This document shows, in pieces, positions 1,621 to 17,086 of a stretch of 20,283 nt of DNA (positions within the stretch are counted from its first letter, which is position 1; each line of letters opens with the position of its first letter). This DNA comes from a virus. The position numbers were made by a program, and so were the translations under genes. The DNA is taken from positions 1 through 20,283 of IMG/VR virus record IMGVR_UViG_3300047557_000291; one strand, written 5' to 3'. The notes beneath the pieces are model-generated. The model was given only the letters and a program-made list of their open reading frames with translations. It did not search any database and was not told where the DNA came from.

Positions 1621-2405
1621 CCCACAATTATATAACCGTAGGTCTTATTCGCAGTGTCATTCGCCCAGTGAGATATAGTTGCTTGCCCTTGTTGCTGGCT
1701 TGAAACATACAAGTTTGTTGTTGCAGCAGGAGCCACATAGCTCATCGTTACAATGGCAGACGGAATTGATGGTCTTGTCGGGCTTGTACTTGTTCCAAAA
1801 TGCTCAAGCGAAACACCAATGTCAGTCGTTCTCCACATGATCTGAACATAGTCATTAGCGTTCATTTCCATAAAGAAATTCATCGCGGCAATTAAGTGAG
1901 AAGGATCGCCAGTACTTTTCCTAGCTGGCATGTGAAACCGGCTATTAGATCCGGCAACATCAGTACCGTTCTTGCGGAACCAGATGTCTATATCCTGACC
2001 ATCATTGGTGGTGTTTTTAAATTGAAAACTAAACTGTATGTTATATATCCCGTAGTTTCTGACATTTAGCCTAGAACTGTTGGATACATATATTCCGTTA
2101 CTGTAATCTGTTGTGTTATAGGTAACAGCATAAGCTGTTGTCGTATTGGCAGCAGTTTGGTCTGTAGTGTCCTGAAACGCTCCATAAGGCGCTGAATCTT
2201 CTTCTGCCTCATCAGATACCGGAACAAAGAAAATCAGGCTGTCGTAGCCTATACGCTCATCAAATAGGGTAGTTGTGGTGGCATTGCCGGTTGCTAGGGT
2301 AATCTCGCCAGAATTATTGGTCTTACCGTCCATAATCCCACGGACTACCTCAGCAACGGCTCGCTGATCCCCTCCAAATGGCGGTAATGTGCGGAATTGC
2401 CTCAT
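1617..2405 (-). CDS. Tail-associated protein with jelly-roll-like C-terminal region
   Basis: 262 aa. The N-terminus begins MRQFRTLPPFGGDQRAVAEV and looks like a virion-attachment segment. Residues about 35-60 (LATGNATTTTLFDERIGYDS) read as beta structure. Residues about 115-205 contain alternating strands (YNIQFSFQFKN, DIDIWFRKNG, MNFFMEMNANDYVQIMWR) spaced as in C1q/TNF-like trimeric jelly rolls often found in phage fibres and spikes. The ATG overlaps the stop of the upstream hub gene (ATGA, 2405-2402). Position and fold suggest a receptor-facing or tail-tip protein. The exact part is not assignable from sequence alone. Confidence 0.78.
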   Translation of the reverse strand: MRQFRTLPPFGGDQRAVAEVVRGIMDGKTNNSGEITLATGNATTTTLFDERIGYDSLIFFVPVSDEAEEDSAPYGAFQDTTDQTAANTTTAYAVTYNTTDYSNGIYVSNSSRLNVRNYGIYNIQFSFQFKNTTNDGQDIDIWFRKNGTDVAGSNSRFHMPARKSTGDPSHLIAAMNFFMEMNANDYVQIMWRTTDIGVSLEHFGTSTSPTRPSIPSAIVTMSYVAPAATTNLYVSSQQQGQATISHWANDTANKTYGYIIVG

Positions 2406-3820
2406 CGATCACCCTGTTTCACAACACTAAGCTCTAAACCAAAGGCTGTTTCCCAGTTAGCACCAGTAGGAGTCAGTCTTAGACGATGATATTCGCCATT
2501 ACTCCGCAAGCTCACACGGTTTTCAGCGTCTGGCGCAACATCTGCGCTAAATTCCACCTGTTCAGCAAGACTATCCCGGCTAGAAATAGCGATTAGACCG
2601 CTACCTTTGTCCACAATCGGCCTTGCCAGCGTCACAGTAGACCGTCCTACGTCAATATCACCCGTTGTTATGTTGGCAGTCTTGGGCTGACCAGAGAAAG
2701 AAATGATCTTTTGACCAGAAACACCCGCAAATAGCAGTTGTCCACCAGCAAACACACGAGAGTCGAGTGGAATATCCAAGGCATCAATGCTTGTATTGTA
2801 GTTATCTACCTGTTCTAACGTAGCAGAAGGTGTTAGCACATAAGCAATAGATGTAGCAGTTGTCTCTGCATACGACCACTTATCTAAATCAATGGAATAC
2901 ATCAGCAGATTCTTACCGCCAAACGTATTGTTAAACTTCCATATTACTAATTTGTTAACAGGATCGACCGTAGCGCTCATTCCTGTAAATATCTCATTGG
3001 GAATAGCGTTTTCAAAAAACCAGCGGTTTACTTTCTCAGTACCTATATTTTTTGTAGATTGACCATCACAGACATAAAAACCATCGTCAGCAAGGAAATA
3101 GGTCAAGTTACCGTATTGAGCAATAGAGCCGTTAGAAATACAGCCCAAAGACCTAGAAATAGCGTCAAACTGGAAAAAGAAAGGAGAGCCAGCATAGCTC
3201 ATCCGGTAGATAGCACGCTCTAGGAAGATCAAGCCGTACTCACCACCAGCAATGCCAGTAATATCACCGCCATCAGGCAGAATCTGGCTATCAGACTGAG
3301 AAGCAGCAGCAGGTGTCCAGTCTGTCTCATCATTAATATCAGACCAGTAAACCTTGCTCGTATCCGTCCCGTCATTCGCAGCCACCACAAAGTCACGAAC
3401 AACCGTTACGTACTTGGCAATAGGGGCATCAGCAGACAAGTTGGCAAAATTAGTAGACGAGTTTAGCGTCCATGCTTGCAGCTTATTCTGACCATTAGCC
3501 AGAATCATCTTAGGGCCAAACTGCGTTACATCCCAACCCTCTACAGCCGTATATCCTGTAGTCGTAGCTGCATCAAGACTGGCATCATTGCTGTCAAACT
3601 TGTAAATCTGAGTAGCACTAGCAGCAAATAAGGTACTAGCCCCACCGAACTTACCAGCAAAGGTAATCAGCAGGTTTGCCCCGGCAGCATCAGAATAATC
3701 AGCTTCACTCTTAATCGGCGCATAACCGTTAGCAACTGGATAACAGTTTTTAGCGTCTGTTACAGCACCTGTAACCCCCGGCTGATCTGGTAACCATTCA
3801 CCAAATGCTATTTTTTGCAT
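2402..3820 (-). CDS. Tail hub/nozzle (packaged-DNA stabilisation-like) protein
   Basis: 472 aa. Begins MQKIAFGEWLPDQPGVTGAV, followed by DAKNCYPVANGYAPIKS; this opening is shared by a widespread podovirus tail family that I associate with P22 gp10-like hubs and SU10-type nozzles. The middle of the protein is repeated short beta strands with aromatic turns (VYWSDINDETDW, LIFLERAIYRMSY, YFLADDGFYVCDG, DKWSYAETT), fitting a beta-propeller-like hub. The C-terminal ~80 residues look like a separate beta domain (VEFSADVAPDAENRVSLRS). The role would be to close the tail channel below the adaptor and carry fibres. Length and position fit. The hub-versus-nozzle distinction is uncertain. Confidence 0.82.
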   Translation of the reverse strand: MQKIAFGEWLPDQPGVTGAVTDAKNCYPVANGYAPIKSEADYSDAAGANLLITFAGKFGGASTLFAASATQIYKFDSNDASLDAATTTGYTAVEGWDVTQFGPKMILANGQNKLQAWTLNSSTNFANLSADAPIAKYVTVVRDFVVAANDGTDTSKVYWSDINDETDWTPAAASQSDSQILPDGGDITGIAGGEYGLIFLERAIYRMSYAGSPFFFQFDAISRSLGCISNGSIAQYGNLTYFLADDGFYVCDGQSTKNIGTEKVNRWFFENAIPNEIFTGMSATVDPVNKLVIWKFNNTFGGKNLLMYSIDLDKWSYAETTATSIAYVLTPSATLEQVDNYNTSIDALDIPLDSRVFAGGQLLFAGVSGQKIISFSGQPKTANITTGDIDVGRSTVTLARPIVDKGSGLIAISSRDSLAEQVEFSADVAPDAENRVSLRSNGEYHRLRLTPTGANWETAFGLELSVVKQGDR

Positions 3821-4245: not shown

Positions 4246-5475
4246 TTAGCGGAAAACGGCAATATTCACTTGGGCTGGGTCTAATTGCGAAAAAGTGCTT
4301 GAATTTGCTGTTGCCATTCTAAAAGCAGATGATGTTCTGGCAGTTAAATCGCTGTAGTCTCTAATTCCATAAGCAGAACTAGTACCGCCAAGTAATCCAG
4401 TTACAGAATAATTCGCATCCGGCATAGCTGTCGTAAAGTTCACGGTATAGTCACCAGTACCGTTATCCGTGATGCTTGATACGTTACCGCTGGCTCTAAT
4501 AGCGACTGTACCTGTTCCGTTGAAATTCACCCATGCGCGGCAGCCGTATGCTGTGGCTACTGAGCCGTAACCAGAGTTAAATCCAAATGTACTTCCTGTT
4601 GCGTTTCCTGTAACTGTTGCAGCACTTCCTGTTGTATTCTGGTTAAGTGTAGGGACATCACCAGCCTGAATTGCGGACATCACAACGTTAGTGCCATTGC
4701 CACGCAAATACTGACCTGAAGTAACAGCGCCAGCAAATGAATTCATCGCCGCTTGTGCAGTTGTTTGACCTGTACCACCATTTCCTAAAGGTAAAGTTCC
4801 TGTCACTGCATTAGTAGAAGCCAAATTAACGGCGCCAAAACCAAGAGCAGTACCAGAACGTCTTAATACTTGATTGTCACTCGCAGCAGCAATGCTTGCT
4901 ACATCACCGGTTGCGTTTCCTGTAACACCAAGAACAGAAAGCGCAGAACCTTGAGTAAGGTTTGCAAATGGTAAATCACCTGTAACGCCATTAGACAAAT
5001 CTATCTGAGACCATGCTGGATTGTTACTTGTTCCAGTATTTGCTAAATAGCGTGTGGCAGTAGTATTTTTGGCAAGCCTTGAGAATGTGTCAGTGCCAGA
5101 TGCATAAAGAATATCGCCCTGAGTTGCTCCCATGCTAGCAGTATCTATTGTTGCACCATCAACATATACAGAGCGACCAGCAGGATATGTCACAAATACA
5201 TCTTTAGTTCCAGCAGAAAAAGTAGTTTTAGTCGGAGCGCCAGCACTAGAAGCTAATACTGTGTCACGAGAAAGAGTCGTTCCAGACGATGTGTATGTGC
5301 CAATACCTATTTCCCACTCAGACGTTCCTTGACCGGCAATAACGTAATAAGTTGTATTGCCATTTCCAACAACGGAAAATGACTGGAAACCAGATGCAGC
5401 ACCAGCAAGTGTAATAGTACCTGTACCAGTGGTAGTCGTTGTTTCTTTTACTCTATCAGCTAAAACAAGAGCCAT
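4246..5475 (-). CDS. Tail fibre protein
   Basis: 409 aa. N-terminus [19 protein letters not shown], then a beta-rich attachment domain to about residue 105 ([34 protein letters not shown]). Residues about 130-300 are a low-complexity shaft rich in Thr, Gly, Asn and Ala with fibre motifs such as [18 protein letters not shown] and two copies of VTGNAT. The C-terminal ~110 residues (from [19 protein letters not shown] to NIAVFR) form a distinct compact domain, likely the receptor-binding tip. Thr/Ser/Asn-rich composition and the shaft motif are typical of phage fibres. Its ATG shares one base with the upstream stop (TAATG). Next to it are other probable receptor-facing proteins. Confidence 0.88.
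4598..4614. repeat. 17-nt direct repeat, copy 1 (fibre shaft)
   Basis: GTTGCGTTTCCTGTAAC on the plus strand, identical to 4910-4926, 312 bp apart (an exact multiple of 3). On the coding strand both encode the VTGNAT motif. Recombination between them would remove 104 residues of shaft and keep the frame. Confidence 0.8.
4910..4926. repeat. 17-nt direct repeat, copy 2 (fibre shaft)
   Basis: Identical to 4598-4614 and in the same reading frame within the fibre gene. Probably reflects shaft motif repetition rather than a mobile sequence. Confidence 0.8.
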
Positions 5476-6128
5476 TATTGCCTCATCCAGTTATCTGACC
5501 CAGCATTTACATTTGTCCAGCTATCAATACCAACTGCGCTGGTTGTCCAAACATTAGTAGTAGGAATTACATCAGACCATTCCTCGCCAATAATTTGACC
5601 ATTTGCATTTATATTTGCTAATACATTAATGTAACCAGCAGCAGAGAATATTGCATTAGCGTTACAATTTACCGTTGCAATTGCATTTACACTGGCATTT
5701 CCTTCGTAGATAACGCCGCCTAACGCAGTAACTATCGCTTCTCCAGTGATAGAACCAGATGCCATTCGGAATCTTATTCCGTCAGCAGTAACTGTTGCAT
5801 TACCTGTTATAGAAGCATCAGAAAATACTTCTCGTATCCCGTTAGCCGTAACAGTCGCAGTAACATTTATTGCGCCACTTGCGCCATAAATCGCTACGCC
5901 ATCCGCAGTTACGGTTGCAACTCCAATTACATTAGCATCAGCAAGATTTAGTTTTCCACCATTTGCCGTTACTGTAGCAAAACAACTTATGTCACCAGAA
6001 AAAAATTGAATTCTTGTACCTGATGCAGTAACTGTAGCAGTAGCATTAACACTTGCTTCACCAAATAGAACTAATCCACCACTTAACGAAGAAAATGGCG
6101 TTTCAGCAAATGAGCTAAATCCAAACAT
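5475..6128 (-). CDS. Repeat-containing tail protein (eight 20-residue repeats)
   Basis: 217 aa, ATG directly after the stop of the Gp80-like gene, with no strong Shine-Dalgarno. N-terminus [18 protein letters not shown] is a motif I know from phage tail-region proteins. Residues about 23-182 are eight tandem 20-residue units with consensus A-S-[IV]-x-x-x-A-T-V-T-A-[ND]-G followed by a variable hydrophobic segment. The C-terminal ~35 residues carry spaced tryptophans (EEWSDV, NVWTTS, DSWTNV, DNWMRQ). The regular beta-like repeat suggests a beta-helix or solenoid rod. With the fibre gene right after it (TAATG), I infer a fibre, spike or baseplate-linked part. No catalytic motif is visible. Confidence 0.8.
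5590..6070. repeat. Tandem 60-nt coding repeat, eight units
   Basis: The plus-strand word GC[AC]GT[TA]AC starts at 5725, 5785, 5845, 5905, 5965 and 6025, exactly 60 nt apart. Two weaker units are in register at 5665 and 5605. Units differ at many third positions, so the array is old or selected for protein period, not a fresh duplication. Outer limits are approximate. Confidence 0.85.
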
Positions 6129-6515
6129 TTAAGCCAAAGTCACCGACAAGCTGCCAATCGCAATCTTAAAGATGTCACCGTTATCAATGGTTTTGGACGT
6201 ATCCAGAGCAGTGTGATACAGCAGGTTGCCGCCAGTTAAAGCATCCTCAATGCCAATCCATCCCACGGTTCCCCATGAAGCGGTAGCTTGCGGAAACTCA
6301 ACCGCAGTGCTATTGGTAGATACTCCGTTACTAGGCGCACCAAAAGTAACAGCCTGACGAGCATAAGATCCACCAGAAACCTCAGTCCCTGTATCAGCAT
6401 CAGTCGGATCAGACGTATACAGGCCGACATAAACCGTTGCAGGACTCGTGTAGCTCGTATTACGCAAGGTAGCGTTAATCAGAGCCTGCTCTAGGTAATT
6501 TGACATCTCTGCCAT
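6129..6515 (-). CDS. Gp80-like tail fibre/virion protein
   Basis: 128 aa. Start ATG 6515 has GAGGAG 6 nt upstream, contained in the end of the inserted HNH gene. Motifs: MSNYLEQALINATLRNT (4-20), VYVGLYTSDPTDADTGTEV (28-46), GGSYARQAVTFG (48-59), then a Trp-containing strand ATASWGTVGWIGIEDA and a closing GDIFKIAIGSLSVTL. This pattern (LRNT..TSPATVYV.LYTSDPT) is a widespread phage virion family that I know as Gp80-like, often annotated tail fibre. It is a small beta-rich protein placed between the adaptor and the fibre genes. The specific virion location is not known to me. Confidence 0.82.
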   Translation of the reverse strand: MAEMSNYLEQALINATLRNTSYTSPATVYVGLYTSDPTDADTGTEVSGGSYARQAVTFGAPSNGVSTNSTAVEFPQATASWGTVGWIGIEDALTGGNLLYHTALDTSKTIDNGDIFKIAIGSLSVTLA

Positions 6516-6518
6516 GAT

Positions 6519-7067
6519 TTACTCCTCAAATGAATTCTGTTTACTACGGTTTTCAAACTGGGTTATAACTCTTAAATTCCAAGGAACATGAAGCCCACAT
6601 ACAGTTTTTCCCATCAATGGAACTATATGATCTACTTCATATTTAGTTCCTGTTTCCCTAGTCTTTAACCTTGCCTCAACGTAAAACTTTTGTATCTCTT
6701 GTTTTAATTCTTCATTAATCCATTTTGGAACCGCATTTCTCTTTGCAGCCCTTGCTAATGCTTGCCAAGCAAACTTTTTATGCTTTGTATTTTCGTAACA
6801 TCTTTTGCTTTTAATTGCATATTTTTCTTTATTATTTCTTTGCCATTCTATTGTTCTTTTTATTATTCTATCTTTGTTCTTTTCATAATTTTCATAATGA
6901 TATTGCATTGCTTTAGCTTTTTCTGCCTCAGCGTTTTTTTCGTACCATTCTTTTTTAGCCGCTTTAGAGCATTCTTTACACCAACGGTGTAGCCCGTCTT
7001 TATTTGCAGCACACTTAGAAAATACATTAAGCTGCTTATCAACATTGCATTTTGAGCAACGCTCCAC
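6519..7067 (-). CDS. HNH endonuclease with N-terminal zinc motif, inserted gene
   Basis: 182 aa, GTG start at 7067 with GAGGT 7 nt upstream (that site includes the adaptor's last codons). Zinc motif C4-x2-C7 and C30-x2-C33. A Lys/Glu-rich helical linker covers 35-110. The HNH core is at about 143-176: EVDHIVPL with D146-H147, then H160, N164 and N173 in LHVPWNLRVITQFENRSKQN. This is the usual HNH layout of DH, H/N and N-x8-N. The gene is visibly AT-richer than its neighbours, with Lys/Asn-rich codons. It sits between adaptor and tail gene without disrupting either, so a free-standing homing-type endonuclease is the best reading. Its target is unknown. Confidence 0.9.
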   Translation of the reverse strand: MERCSKCNVDKQLNVFSKCAANKDGLHRWCKECSKAAKKEWYEKNAEAEKAKAMQYHYENYEKNKDRIIKRTIEWQRNNKEKYAIKSKRCYENTKHKKFAWQALARAAKRNAVPKWINEELKQEIQKFYVEARLKTRETGTKYEVDHIVPLMGKTVCGLHVPWNLRVITQFENRSKQNSFEE

Positions 7068-7072
7068 TGATT

Positions 7073-7693
7073 TTACCTCACGTTATAAGACATTGCCATA
7101 GGCTGACCACTGTACTCACTAGACTGGTCAGCACTAGAAATAGACGCTATCGCCCGGTCATACAGAGAAGCCCAGACCTGCAATCTTGCATCGTTCATCA
7201 AGTACGGCTCAGCCTCAGCCAAAGACGCATACAGCAGGGCATCCGGGCAGTTAGCCAAGAAGACATTGCTTGTATTGGAGTCACTCAGCAGAGGAGGCTT
7301 GGCGTAATACAGCATCTGAGCCGTGTACGCAGTATCAGGAATAGGAGCAAACTGAAGCTCTGAGGCCAGAACCGTATAAGTCCGTGGGATACCAGACTCG
7401 GTAGCCCGTGTGCTTTGGTAGAAGCTATTAGGAGCCTCGTAGGAGACAGAGCTGATCGGGGTAGTCTTGAAGTGAATATCCCGCATCTCTAAGAAGTCTG
7501 TAGGAAGTCCCACAGTGGGATCACCGCCTGTCGTGTTAGCTGTAGCCACGACCAGCATCTGACGGATTCTCAGGTCTCGACGCAGACGCTCCTCAGCCAG
7601 CCGGATAAAATCAGGGATAACTGAGTTCAGGTCACTACGAGCTAGGTAGTTCGCTATCGTAGTCTTTAGGTCACTGTAGCTCGTAAATGCCAT
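7073..7693 (-). CDS. Head-tail adaptor protein (SU10-adaptor/gp11-like)
   Basis: 206 aa. The N-terminal helical segment MAFTSYSDLKTTIANYLARS is followed by VIPDFIRLAEERLRRDLRIRQM and a Gly/Thr loop. Then come LPTDFLEMRDIHF and the strand region ELQFAPIPDTAYTAQMLYY, and a C-terminal helical part (NCPDALLYASLAEAEPYLMND, WASLYDRAIASI). I recognise this as the adaptor family that forms the ring between portal and tail hub in short-tailed phages, related to T7 gp11 and P22 gp4. Length is typical. Its placement after capsid and before tail genes agrees. Confidence 0.9.
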   Translation of the reverse strand: MAFTSYSDLKTTIANYLARSDLNSVIPDFIRLAEERLRRDLRIRQMLVVATANTTGGDPTVGLPTDFLEMRDIHFKTTPISSVSYEAPNSFYQSTRATESGIPRTYTVLASELQFAPIPDTAYTAQMLYYAKPPLLSDSNTSNVFLANCPDALLYASLAEAEPYLMNDARLQVWASLYDRAIASISSADQSSEYSGQPMAMSYNVR

Positions 7694-7695
7694 GT

Positions 7696-8376
7696 TTATT
7701 TCCCGTTATTGTGCGCCTCTATAGCGCCTTCCTCTACATCTTCCCATCGATACTCGTAAGTCCCAATGTGCCCAATATGCTTGGATAGGCTGTGATCTAC
7801 ATAGGTCTGAAAGCCCGCATCCAAGGCCTTGATGCAAAAATGCACATCCTCGCCAATAATGCCCTTAGACCCCCAACCCACATCAAACCAAGGCTTAGGA
7901 ACCTTCTCAAACACTTCCTTGCGAATCATCACCACACCAAAACCAACCGCTGTGACAGGCTCTATACCCTCCCTGCCCATCGAATCTACCTTGTGCCAAG
8001 CGTGACGAATAATCTTACCCTCGTCATCCTTCTCAATCTCAAGGTTTAACGCAGTCGGTAGCGTAGGCTTACGTCTAGTTACCGCATTGACACCAACAAT
8101 CGGAACCTCACGGCTTAGCAAAATGTCAATCGTGTCAGCCGGAAACCTCATGTCTGAGTCAATAAACAGAATCGCATCACATCCTTCAGCCAGAGCAGCA
8201 TCTACTAGCTTCTCTCTCTGATCGAATATCAGCGTTCCTGCCATCGTATAGAGCTTTAGACCATTACCTTCTTTAGAGCATCTGTTCCTTGAGTCTCTGC
8301 CAACCATCTTGGCGAAATCAAAAGCAAACGATGTATGAACTTCATCCCTAGCTGGTACGCAAGCACCTACGATCAT
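7696..8376 (-). CDS. GT-A type glycosyltransferase-like protein
   Basis: 226 aa, starting in an ATGA overlap (8376-8373). N-terminus MIVGACVPARDEVHTSFAFD is the first GT-A strand. REKLVDAALAEGCDAILFIDSDM places a D-x-D motif at D73-D75, the metal and sugar-nucleotide site. Later come GEDVHFCIKALDAGF (175-189), with the acidic residues usual for the acceptor-side motif, and H200/H203. The whole GT-A layout is present and intact. It lies between a capsid-proximal gene and the adaptor, so it may decorate virion proteins or act on host surface sugars. The substrate cannot be read from sequence. Confidence 0.82.
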   Translation of the reverse strand: MIVGACVPARDEVHTSFAFDFAKMVGRDSRNRCSKEGNGLKLYTMAGTLIFDQREKLVDAALAEGCDAILFIDSDMRFPADTIDILLSREVPIVGVNAVTRRKPTLPTALNLEIEKDDEGKIIRHAWHKVDSMGREGIEPVTAVGFGVVMIRKEVFEKVPKPWFDVGWGSKGIIGEDVHFCIKALDAGFQTYVDHSLSKHIGHIGTYEYRWEDVEEGAIEAHNNGK

Positions 8377-15202: not shown

Positions 15203-15877
15203 TTACTTCTTTGGCAATTTCTGTAAATTTATCTTTGATAGCTGTTCTGGAGACAAGATGAACTGGTTGTCTACTTCTTGGAATGGAATTCCCATGTTCG
15301 TTAGTCTCTGATACATCTTTTTAGTTGCATCACTTGTAATTGTGTCTGATTTCCAGCCCATATTGTTCTGTTTAGCTACATCTAATGCCTGTAAGTACAA
15401 CCTTGTAGCCGTTCCTTTTCCACCAACCTTTTCAGGCTTATCTAAAACCTCTAAATAAGCGTTCATGTATTTCGGGTCAAACTCATCACGAGATGTTGTC
15501 AATATGATATCTGGATTCTTATTTTCTTTGAAGACAAATCGATTCATCCGATCAACTGTCATATCTATAGAAGGAGCAACCGCTTTTCCAATGCTTAAAG
15601 CCATTGGCGCAGCCAGCAGGCCAGTTTTAGCCATTGAAGCCGGATTGATCGCACTTGCTACTAGCTCTGTCGTTTCTCCTAGCAATCCCTTTTGTGGAGG
15701 AGGCAATAAACCCTTTGACGTTAGGTAAGCCGTTGATCCTACTGCTTGCTCTGGCTTCATCACCCCAGTCATCGTAAATGGCAAAGCAGCCAAATCTACG
15801 AAACCTGTAGCTAACTGCGGAACTCCCCTAGCAGCCGCTAAACCGAGTTTCCTGAGAGTTTCCGTCATGTCAGCCAT
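15203..15877 (-). CDS. Phage protein with membrane-like N-terminus and GNAT-like C-terminus
   Basis: 224 aa, ATG with GAGG 6 nt upstream and an 8-nt overlap with the glycosyltransferase. Residues 15-100 are Ala/Gly/Leu-rich with segments like GVPQLATGFVDLAALPFTMT and GLLGETTELVASAINPAS, which recall N-terminal parts of large phage virion polyproteins. From about 125 a separate domain begins, with VGGKGTATRLYLQALDVAKQ (151-170), WKSDTITSDATKKMYQRLTN (175-194) and MGIPF. That is a GNAT-like pattern: a G-x-G-x-A/T loop, a helix, then SD...S...MY.RL..MG. It may be a shortened relative of those polyproteins. Function unknown; virion or packaging-linked is inferred from the next gene. Confidence 0.78.
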   Translation of the reverse strand: MADMTETLRKLGLAAARGVPQLATGFVDLAALPFTMTGVMKPEQAVGSTAYLTSKGLLPPPQKGLLGETTELVASAINPASMAKTGLLAAPMALSIGKAVAPSIDMTVDRMNRFVFKENKNPDIILTTSRDEFDPKYMNAYLEVLDKPEKVGGKGTATRLYLQALDVAKQNNMGWKSDTITSDATKKMYQRLTNMGIPFQEVDNQFILSPEQLSKINLQKLPKK

Positions 15878-16577
15878 AGATAGCCTCGTACATATCGGCG
15901 CGATTCTCTAGTATCCACGCCCTCGGTTCTTCATGGCATTTCTTGTAGTCAATCCCTACTGTCTGGCTTCCTGCATGATGCACATAAGCCCTCGATACGA
16001 AATGCCTAAATCCTGCCTCTTGCAGGTCATGGCATATTATATTATCGGAATACCAATTAGTGCTAGGAAACTTGGCTGTCTCCCATGCCTTCCTGCTTAT
16101 GCTGGCAAATATCGGAGCAATTACGCCAGTTTCCTTAATCTTTGACTCACTAGCCCACCTCAGCCCTACCTGCTGATCTTGCTCTACAGGGAATCTAATG
16201 TTTTGGTCATGCAGCACATAGTCAGATCTAGCTCCCAAGAAACCTACCTCAATGTTGTTCTCTTGGATAAGTTTATAGTCTGTCCCCAATAACTTTATAG
16301 TGCTTGGATTCAGCACAACATCGTCATTACTCAGGATTACCGAGTCAAACTTCCCATGCTCGAAAGCGTAACTTGTAGCTACATTGTAAGCATCGCCAAA
16401 GTTATCAGCCTGATTCGGCCTCCAGACCAAGTTAGGCAGGATGCTCTTAGCCCTATGCCAAAGCTCTAGACTATTCCCAGATAGGTATACAGGCATCGTT
16501 GGGGCATAGACCCTGATACTCTCCAGCAATACAGTTACACCCGGATTCTTAATCGTACAGATGACTATTGCTTGCAC
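15870..16577 (-). CDS. Glycosyltransferase family 2-like protein
   Basis: 235 aa, GTG start at 16577 with AAGGT 7 nt upstream. First strand MQAIVICTIKNPGVTVLLES, then NQADNFGDAYNVATSYAFEH and SVILSNDDVVLNP with an N-D-D metal motif (84-86). Later VGFLGARSDYVLHD, a possible acceptor segment SRKAWETAKFPSTNWYSDN, and ICHDLQEAGFRHFVSRAYVH with the terminal HH. This is a complete small GT-A enzyme. It overlaps the methyltransferase by 13 nt and the GNAT-like gene by 8 nt, so the three are likely expressed together. It is not closely similar to the second glycosyltransferase at 7696-8376. Substrate unknown. Confidence 0.82.
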   Translation of the reverse strand: MQAIVICTIKNPGVTVLLESIRVYAPTMPVYLSGNSLELWHRAKSILPNLVWRPNQADNFGDAYNVATSYAFEHGKFDSVILSNDDVVLNPSTIKLLGTDYKLIQENNIEVGFLGARSDYVLHDQNIRFPVEQDQQVGLRWASESKIKETGVIAPIFASISRKAWETAKFPSTNWYSDNIICHDLQEAGFRHFVSRAYVHHAGSQTVGIDYKKCHEEPRAWILENRADMYEAIYG

Positions 16578-17086
16578 AGTGTTACCTTCATGGAATCTAC
16601 AGCCCTCGGAGTTCTCAATATTTCCTGATCGGGAAGCCCTGTTTCTGACATTTCTGAGCCTAGTTGCGACAGCTTGAACTGGAGTTCTTCTAGCTTAAAG
16701 CCTGACTCCCACCCCAAATACCAGCACCAATCAGTGTAATACAGCCAACTGTTCTCATTAAATGCCCGTACATGAGTCGGATCTTGCCAAGCACCCAGAC
16801 TTAATTCATACGGAACAGAAATAATAAATTTCCCGTTCGGGATTAACAAGTCCCGACAGTTCCGCATGGCACTAATTAAATCCGGAATATGCTCTAAAAC
16901 GTCATTTGCGACAATTTTTTCAAACATCTCCGGCGTAATCTTGATCTGTCCGAATCGGGTTTCTATGACCTCACCCCATCGAACCTTAGATATGTCGCAA
17001 CACCAGTCAGGTTTGACCCTTGCCTGTATGTCGGAGTTTAAGCAATCTTCTCTCCAGTCCTTGCCGGAGCCTAGATTTAAGATCAT
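16565..17086 (-). CDS. Class I SAM-dependent methyltransferase
   Basis: 173 aa, ATGA overlap with the upstream gene (17086-17083). SAM motif I LNLGSGKD (3-10), acidic residue D19 at the end of beta 2, motif CDIS (30-33), and the post-motif NDVLEHIPDL (61-70). Then NCRDLLIPNGKFIISVPYE, as in type-11 methyltransferases, and a Trp-rich substrate part WLYYTDWCWYLGWESGFKLE. There is no (N/D)PPY or PC motif, so it is not a usual DNA methyltransferase. A small-molecule or sugar substrate is more likely given the glycosyltransferase right after it. Methylated sugar decoration is a hypothesis. Confidence 0.88.
   Translation of the reverse strand: MILNLGSGKDWREDCLNSDIQARVKPDWCCDISKVRWGEVIETRFGQIKITPEMFEKIVANDVLEHIPDLISAMRNCRDLLIPNGKFIISVPYELSLGAWQDPTHVRAFNENSWLYYTDWCWYLGWESGFKLEELQFKLSQLGSEMSETGLPDQEILRTPRAVDSMKVTLCKQ

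Follow-up and report, generated by a model that had tools for sequence, protein, structure and literature searches.

A candidate modular tail rod built of 20-residue units and a tryptophan decapeptide array, encoded in a phage tail cassette

The window (the whole 20,283-nt stretch of DNA that was analysed, IMG/VR record IMGVR_UViG_3300047557_000291) encodes a protein with a short N-terminal module, eight 20-residue units and a second, tryptophan-based array. The favoured reading, with a probability of about 0.58, is that this protein is a modular beta-helix tail rod or adhesin of adjustable length and a structural protein of a short tail. The features on which the analysis rests are as follows.

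2402-3820, minus strand: nozzle or stabilisation protein (phrog_3287, E-value: 2.3e-60; 8zkk_O, "nozzle gp16", E-value: 5.7e-9)
4246-5475, minus strand: downstream neighbour, tail fibre gene (phrog_11355 over the C-terminus, E-value: 1.4e-19)
5475-6128, minus strand: repeat protein ORF, 217 aa, ATG start and TAA stop (ORF translation; purifying selection)
5478-5579, minus strand: Trp decapeptide array, with Trp at residues 184, 194, 204 and 214, then MRQ
5508-5519, minus strand: TGGACAAATGTA, the point at which relatives L001, L002 and L004 have 60 nt (two Trp decapeptides) that are missing from the window
5577-6056, minus strand: eight 20-residue units of 60 nt each, residues 25-184 (autocorrelation and unit profile; models)
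6057-6128, minus strand: N-terminal module, residues 1-24, a putative docking peptide whose start is common to proteins with different shafts
6129-6515, minus strand: upstream neighbour, GP4 fibre-I (gp80) family (PF23140, E-value: 1e-51; 8jou_a, E-value: 2.6e-12)
7073-7693, minus strand: SU10-type head-tail adaptor (PF24175, E-value: 1.1e-36; 7z47_A, E-value: 8.2e-11)

The eight units are consecutive and contain no indels. At lags 20, 40 and 60 the residue autocorrelation of the protein is 0.33, 0.41 and 0.33 (background mean 0.10), and in 10,000 shuffles of the protein no period between 5 and 60 gave a value as high as that at lag 20. A unit profile finds eight units in this protein and none in 15 other proteins of the window; on 500 shuffles of the protein it scores at most two weak units, none above 12 bits. 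The unit consensus (A/G, S, I/V, ... A7 T8 V9 T10 A11, N/D12, G13) bears out the AS[IV]xxxATVTA[ND]G proposed in an initial annotation of this DNA, which had also described 5475-6128 as a repeat protein made of eight exact 20-residue repeats. The ORF is there, although the array begins only at residue 25, after the start codon. There are likewise eight units at a spacing of exactly 20, but at the DNA level they are only about 46-51% identical (autocorrelation 0.48-0.51 at lags 60, 120 and 180 in the array; neighbour mean 0.46 over the whole gene). Because the units have diverged and Tandem Repeats Finder did not report the array in the window DNA, "exact" is right for the period and wrong for identity. 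With so low a neighbour-unit mean, the window's shaft is unlikely to have arisen by recent duplication. Ala and Gly alternate at unit position 1 in the window (AGAGAGAG), and a two-rung repeat was considered; among 25 thinned proteins, this position differs between neighbouring units in 87 cases and is the same in 84, which makes the alternation no family rule.

Relatives were collected in two scans of viral contigs (50 loci, then 80 kept of at least 221 matching). The family is common in IMG/VR, with at least 221 loci that have a match; family sizes from these scans are lower bounds. Megablast of the window against phage records gave no close match, and of 30 stretches in bacterial and archaeal genomes that fit a peptide pattern, none is a relative of the repeat protein. 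Unit and Trp counts were taken from 91 distinct proteins, excluding eight loci with other shafts (L042, L044-L050) and four cut-off loci (L025, L026, L041 and L112). These proteins have 9 (39 proteins), 8 (32), 5 (10), 6 (4), 12 (2), 17 (2), 4 (1) or 11 (1) units, and of the 663 gaps between units, 646 measure 20 residues, 16 measure 21 and one measures 41. Length thus changes by whole units, between 4 and 17, as expected of the rungs of a parallel beta-helix. A tree of 98 rows, from which the Trp array was left out, requires no fewer than 15 changes in unit number and no fewer than 11 in Trp number; the rows are related and hence non-independent, many branches are weak, and these counts take in odd cases (L235, L217, L038 and L040). 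The 98-row set, which was also used for phase counts, further omits L037 and L043 and any protein with fewer than four units, a mean unit score below 14 or fewer than two tail Trp. The earlier proposal that rod length varies by unit number applies to the family as a whole, but not to the window's closest relatives. L001-L005 all have a constant eight units, and the difference among them lies in the Trp array. Relatives with a constant unit number and unrelated sequence were not seen. In the shafts of L079, L082 and L103, the best 120-nt self-match is at a lag of 240 nt (0.65, 0.69 and 0.72, respectively), a pattern that suggests growth by blocks of four units.

The initial annotation noted a "Trp-rich end" to the protein. 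This end is present but was undersold, since it forms a second regular array, in which a Trp recurs at intervals of 10 residues. Tail Trp spacing is 10 in 376 of 379 gaps among the 91 distinct proteins, of which 52 have six Trp, 37 have four and two have five. The five-Trp tails are those of L038 and L040, both of which carry an insert. This insert, a YVxxxYWxxGYxxxD-like stretch inside the Trp array, recurs at the N-terminus of L109, L116, L118 and L124 and, from its distribution, appears to be a small mobile module. In a wider set of 179 proteins, runs with a spacing of 10 contain six (59 proteins), four (43), two (2) or three (2) Trp, and runs with a spacing of 11 contain four (31), two (15), three (11) or six (9); three-Trp runs thus occur in 11 of the 66 proteins with spacing 11. 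No Trp run was found in seven of the 179.

The two arrays share one register. Counted from the last unit, the last Trp has phase 9 in 85 of the 98 rows (which, as related sequences, are not independent) and in 21 of 25 proteins of the thinned set. The remaining rows have phases 6 (four rows), 7 (six), 11 (one), 1 (one) and 3 (one), and in none of the 98 is the last Trp half a turn off (phase 19). A 20-residue sequence repeat within the Trp array was tried and rejected. In the 10-spaced tails, decapeptide identity is 0.322 at lag 2 versus 0.325 at lag 1, and per tail (n = 35) the lag-2 value is higher in 15, lower in 18 and equal in two. Since lag-2 identity does not exceed lag-1 identity, sequence alone gives no 20-residue Trp unit, and such a repeat does not account for the even number of Trp. 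An even number would follow from a continuous 20-residue coil.

The window itself differs from its nearest relatives in this array. L001 and L002, which are 97 and 98% identical to the window, have eight units and six Trp. The alignment places a gap of exactly 60 nt in the window, flanked by TGGACAAATGTA and TGGACGAATGTA, which are imperfect 12-nt repeats. As L004 (72%) also has the 60 nt, the simple reading is a loss in the window's own lineage. Assembly collapse is an unlikely source of the difference because the shared stretch is only 12 nt long, with one mismatch. The dN/dS ratio of the repeat gene is 0.13-0.26 in five of six pairs; the remaining pair, window and L002, gives 0.54 on just eight nucleotide differences. 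These ratios point to selection on the encoded protein, purifying in five of the six pairs.

The repeat gene lies between the adaptor and nozzle genes, as expected of a component of a short tail. The TAA of the gp80-family gene abuts its ATG, and its stop overlaps the start codon of the fibre gene by one base (TAATG). The repeat protein has no homology with this downstream fibre. Most of the contexts listed, in which short loci show one side only, have the gene in the same place, between adaptor or gp80 and nozzle and next to fibre genes. Among these contexts the partners change: MALVLADRV-, MPMTLSGDG- or MAKTKISEYS-type fibre genes, or the nozzle gene directly. The protein is a candidate tail protein, in line with the earlier designation, on the strength of this position and of how a single distant homologue, MEP401 gp59, is annotated. 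The distance from the adaptor match to the repeat gene is 394 nt in L002, L004 and L009, 946 nt in L001 and 945 nt in the window, so that about 550 nt between the two genes looks mobile. An ORF between the adaptor and gp80 genes (6519-7067, minus strand) is presumably HNH-endonuclease-like. ORFs 7696-8376, 15870-16577 and 16565-17086 (minus strand), in or near the structural cassette, are taken to be glycosyltransferase-like and methyltransferase-like.

A start of the window type was found in at least 117 distinct proteins by a degenerate DNA pattern scan that included the other-shaft loci noted above. Among the proteins listed, the same start precedes other periodic shafts (for example, a VTGVEATGxVGTV type with a period of 20 to 22), and the tail of these other-shaft proteins usually has Trp every 11 residues. 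In L109, L116, L118, L124 and P0004, conversely, units and a Trp array of the window type follow different N-termini. Because the same start occurs on other shafts and the same shaft behind other starts, the N-terminus, shaft and Trp array can be classed, by sequence comparison, as three exchangeable parts.

No family in Pfam or PHROG matches the repeat protein above threshold; the best PHROG E-value for the window protein is 0.033, and the 74 family members give three matches in all at 0.001. Comparison with the PDB by sequence gave no match to the window protein better than 0.22, and comparison by profile gave best E-values of 0.084 (60 kDa protein) and 0.12 (putative adhesin 3ljy), neither of which is significant. 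AlphaFold2 models of the window protein (74 sequences; mean pLDDT 47, pTM 0.39) and of the 17-unit L103 protein (27 sequences; mean pLDDT 57, pTM 0.54) both have three short strands per unit, and the strands are regular in every unit of the window protein. The L103 model is a regular solenoid that is confident in the centre only, with central ten-residue blocks at pLDDT 65-82 and the last three units and Trp tail below 50. A Foldseek search of this model against the PDB gave nothing significant (best E-value 0.3). Among viral structure models there were three matches at an E-value of 0.001, two carrying the label "uncharacterised" and the third unnamed. VIA alignment, which covered Foldseek's 22 top chains only, so that absence from its list is no verdict on other folds, superposes L103 on EtpA (Z 22.8; rmsd 2.8, 335 residues), Vag8 (Z 21.0; 3.5, 332) and HMW1 (Z 19.0; 3.1, 259). 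All three are taken to be right-handed parallel beta-helices. The shaft is thus predicted to be a beta-helix. Repeats readily yield solenoid predictions. The beta-solenoid rod suggested in the initial annotation is favoured by the L103 solenoid and its superposition, but the window model, which has the same strands, reaches a pLDDT of only 47; a structure with no repeat fold was not predicted, as the monomer models contain repeated strands. In such a helix, T8 and T10 would give two Thr ladders on one outward face, reminiscent of the TxT faces of ice-binding beta-helices. The family-wide frequency of T8 is 0.74, and position 10, also within ATVTA, is 0.56 T and 0.31 S.

The model favoured here is as follows. 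A small rod-like fibre or adhesin is the likeliest identity of the protein, which would be present in the virion as part of the short tail. Residues 1-15 to 1-24 may dock the rod to the tail. The eight units would stack as rungs of a parallel beta-helix; such a helix rises by about 4.8 Å per rung, and from the predicted fold the rod would be about 4 nm long in the window and about 2 to 8 nm for the family's 4 to 17 units. The Trp decapeptides, which probably continue the same coil as the shaft, would form a distal tip that contacts the cell envelope or a partner fibre. The rod would grow or shrink by complete units only, and the tip would mostly change in pairs of Trp decapeptides (20 residues); with both kinds of step the 20-residue register is kept, in the sequences compared, to the C-terminus. 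A bolder extension, put forward tentatively, is that these form a widespread and as yet undescribed class of phage tail rods with three exchangeable modules, in which shaft and tip make one continuous 20-residue coil. If selection admitted only whole-turn changes, reach would be tuned in 0.5-nm steps with the rotational phase of the Trp tip kept.

The same role could instead be filled by an obligate trimer of three intertwined chains, with a triple beta-helix or beta-spiral shaft. Phage fibres are mostly trimers. Those of SU10 are described as such in part of PMC9509320. The low-confidence monomer model of the window protein is what trimers of this kind often give, and a passage of PMC10584680 provides a precedent in trimeric VgrG, for which monomer prediction failed in the same way. 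However, the single-chain L103 solenoid, with its confident centre, overlays single-chain beta-helices, and a 20-residue unit of three strands suits a single-chain coil. The trimer is accordingly regarded as possible but rather unlikely.

Another possibility is that the protein serves in assembly or as a connector and does not bind the host, for example as an adaptor that joins a host-specific fibre to the collar. It adjoins fibre genes whose N-termini are lineage-specific (the three types named above), directly follows the gp80 family in the window and is well conserved, as the low dN/dS values attest. A range of 4 to 17 units and an exchanged N-terminus, however, are easier to reconcile with an exposed rod than with a fixed joint, and in L070-L107-type loci the next gene encodes the nozzle and no fibre. 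This role is therefore thought somewhat improbable.

A disordered low-complexity protein, with a periodicity that is merely the trace of past duplication, would agree with the low pLDDT of the window protein. It is very improbable given that the register is indel-free although units have only about 40% of their residues in common, that the gene is under purifying selection and that small and hydrophobic residues alternate at unit positions 3, 7, 9, 11 and 16. Least probable of all is a closed beta-flower (Tubby-like) domain of Pfam family PF21786 (Bflower_3): this is the best Pfam match (E-value 0.0015 for the window; 0.01 or lower in 15 of 74 members, best 3.3e-6), but it scores 18.8 bits against a gathering cut-off of 34, in the models, at low to moderate confidence, three-strand units follow one another in an open row, and such a row of 4 to 17 units does not make the closed four- to sixfold rings of 8, 10 or 12 strands described for beta-flowers in a section of PMC10584680.

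The idea of a repeat shaft with adjustable length is not new, and the present repeat family is one that lacks a Pfam or PHROG profile; searches of the open-access PMC literature listed no paper that describes this 20-residue repeat in its title or the opening of its abstract. With two arrays in one register and swapped N-termini and shafts, the modular rod family offers a natural series (4 to 17 units; 2, 4 or 6 Trp) for asking how host range relates to the length of the rod and the multivalency of its tip.

The tail cassette resembles those of podophage GP4 and SU10-type tails in its neighbouring genes (GP4 fibre-I family, SU10 adaptor family and nozzle), whereas for the repeat protein no solved chain gave a significant match. 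The adhesins EtpA (8vbb), HMW1 (2odl) and Vag8 (7akv), on which the predicted L103 fold superposes with Z 19-23, are bacterial secreted proteins with 10-15% identity and are fold analogies only. Two proteins in phage records are like that of the window in N-terminus, 20-residue units and Trp decapeptides over 100% of the query: Venkman gp51 (38% identity; eight scored units with one 41-residue gap, four Trp) and a "serine-rich adhesin" of the uncultured phage MW202481 (33% identity; nine units, six Trp). The names in both records are automatic labels. MEP401 gp59 (annotated as "tail protein") and MEP402 gp62 have a period-20 shaft (autocorrelation 0.26-0.27) and directly follow a gp80 homologue. 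They differ from the window protein in their N-terminus (MADGFR...RITE) and in a Trp C-terminus with a spacing of 13, and the unit profile scores just one to three weak units in them. These nearest cultured phages (Venkman, MEP401 and MEP402) infect Methylophilales; the window's own host may differ. Their particles are consistent with a short-tail role for the repeat protein: in a portion of PMC8163748, TEM of Venkman suggested a short tail, though the phage is filed as a siphovirus, and a portion of PMC10580990 describes MEP401 and MEP402 particles with an obscure short tail.
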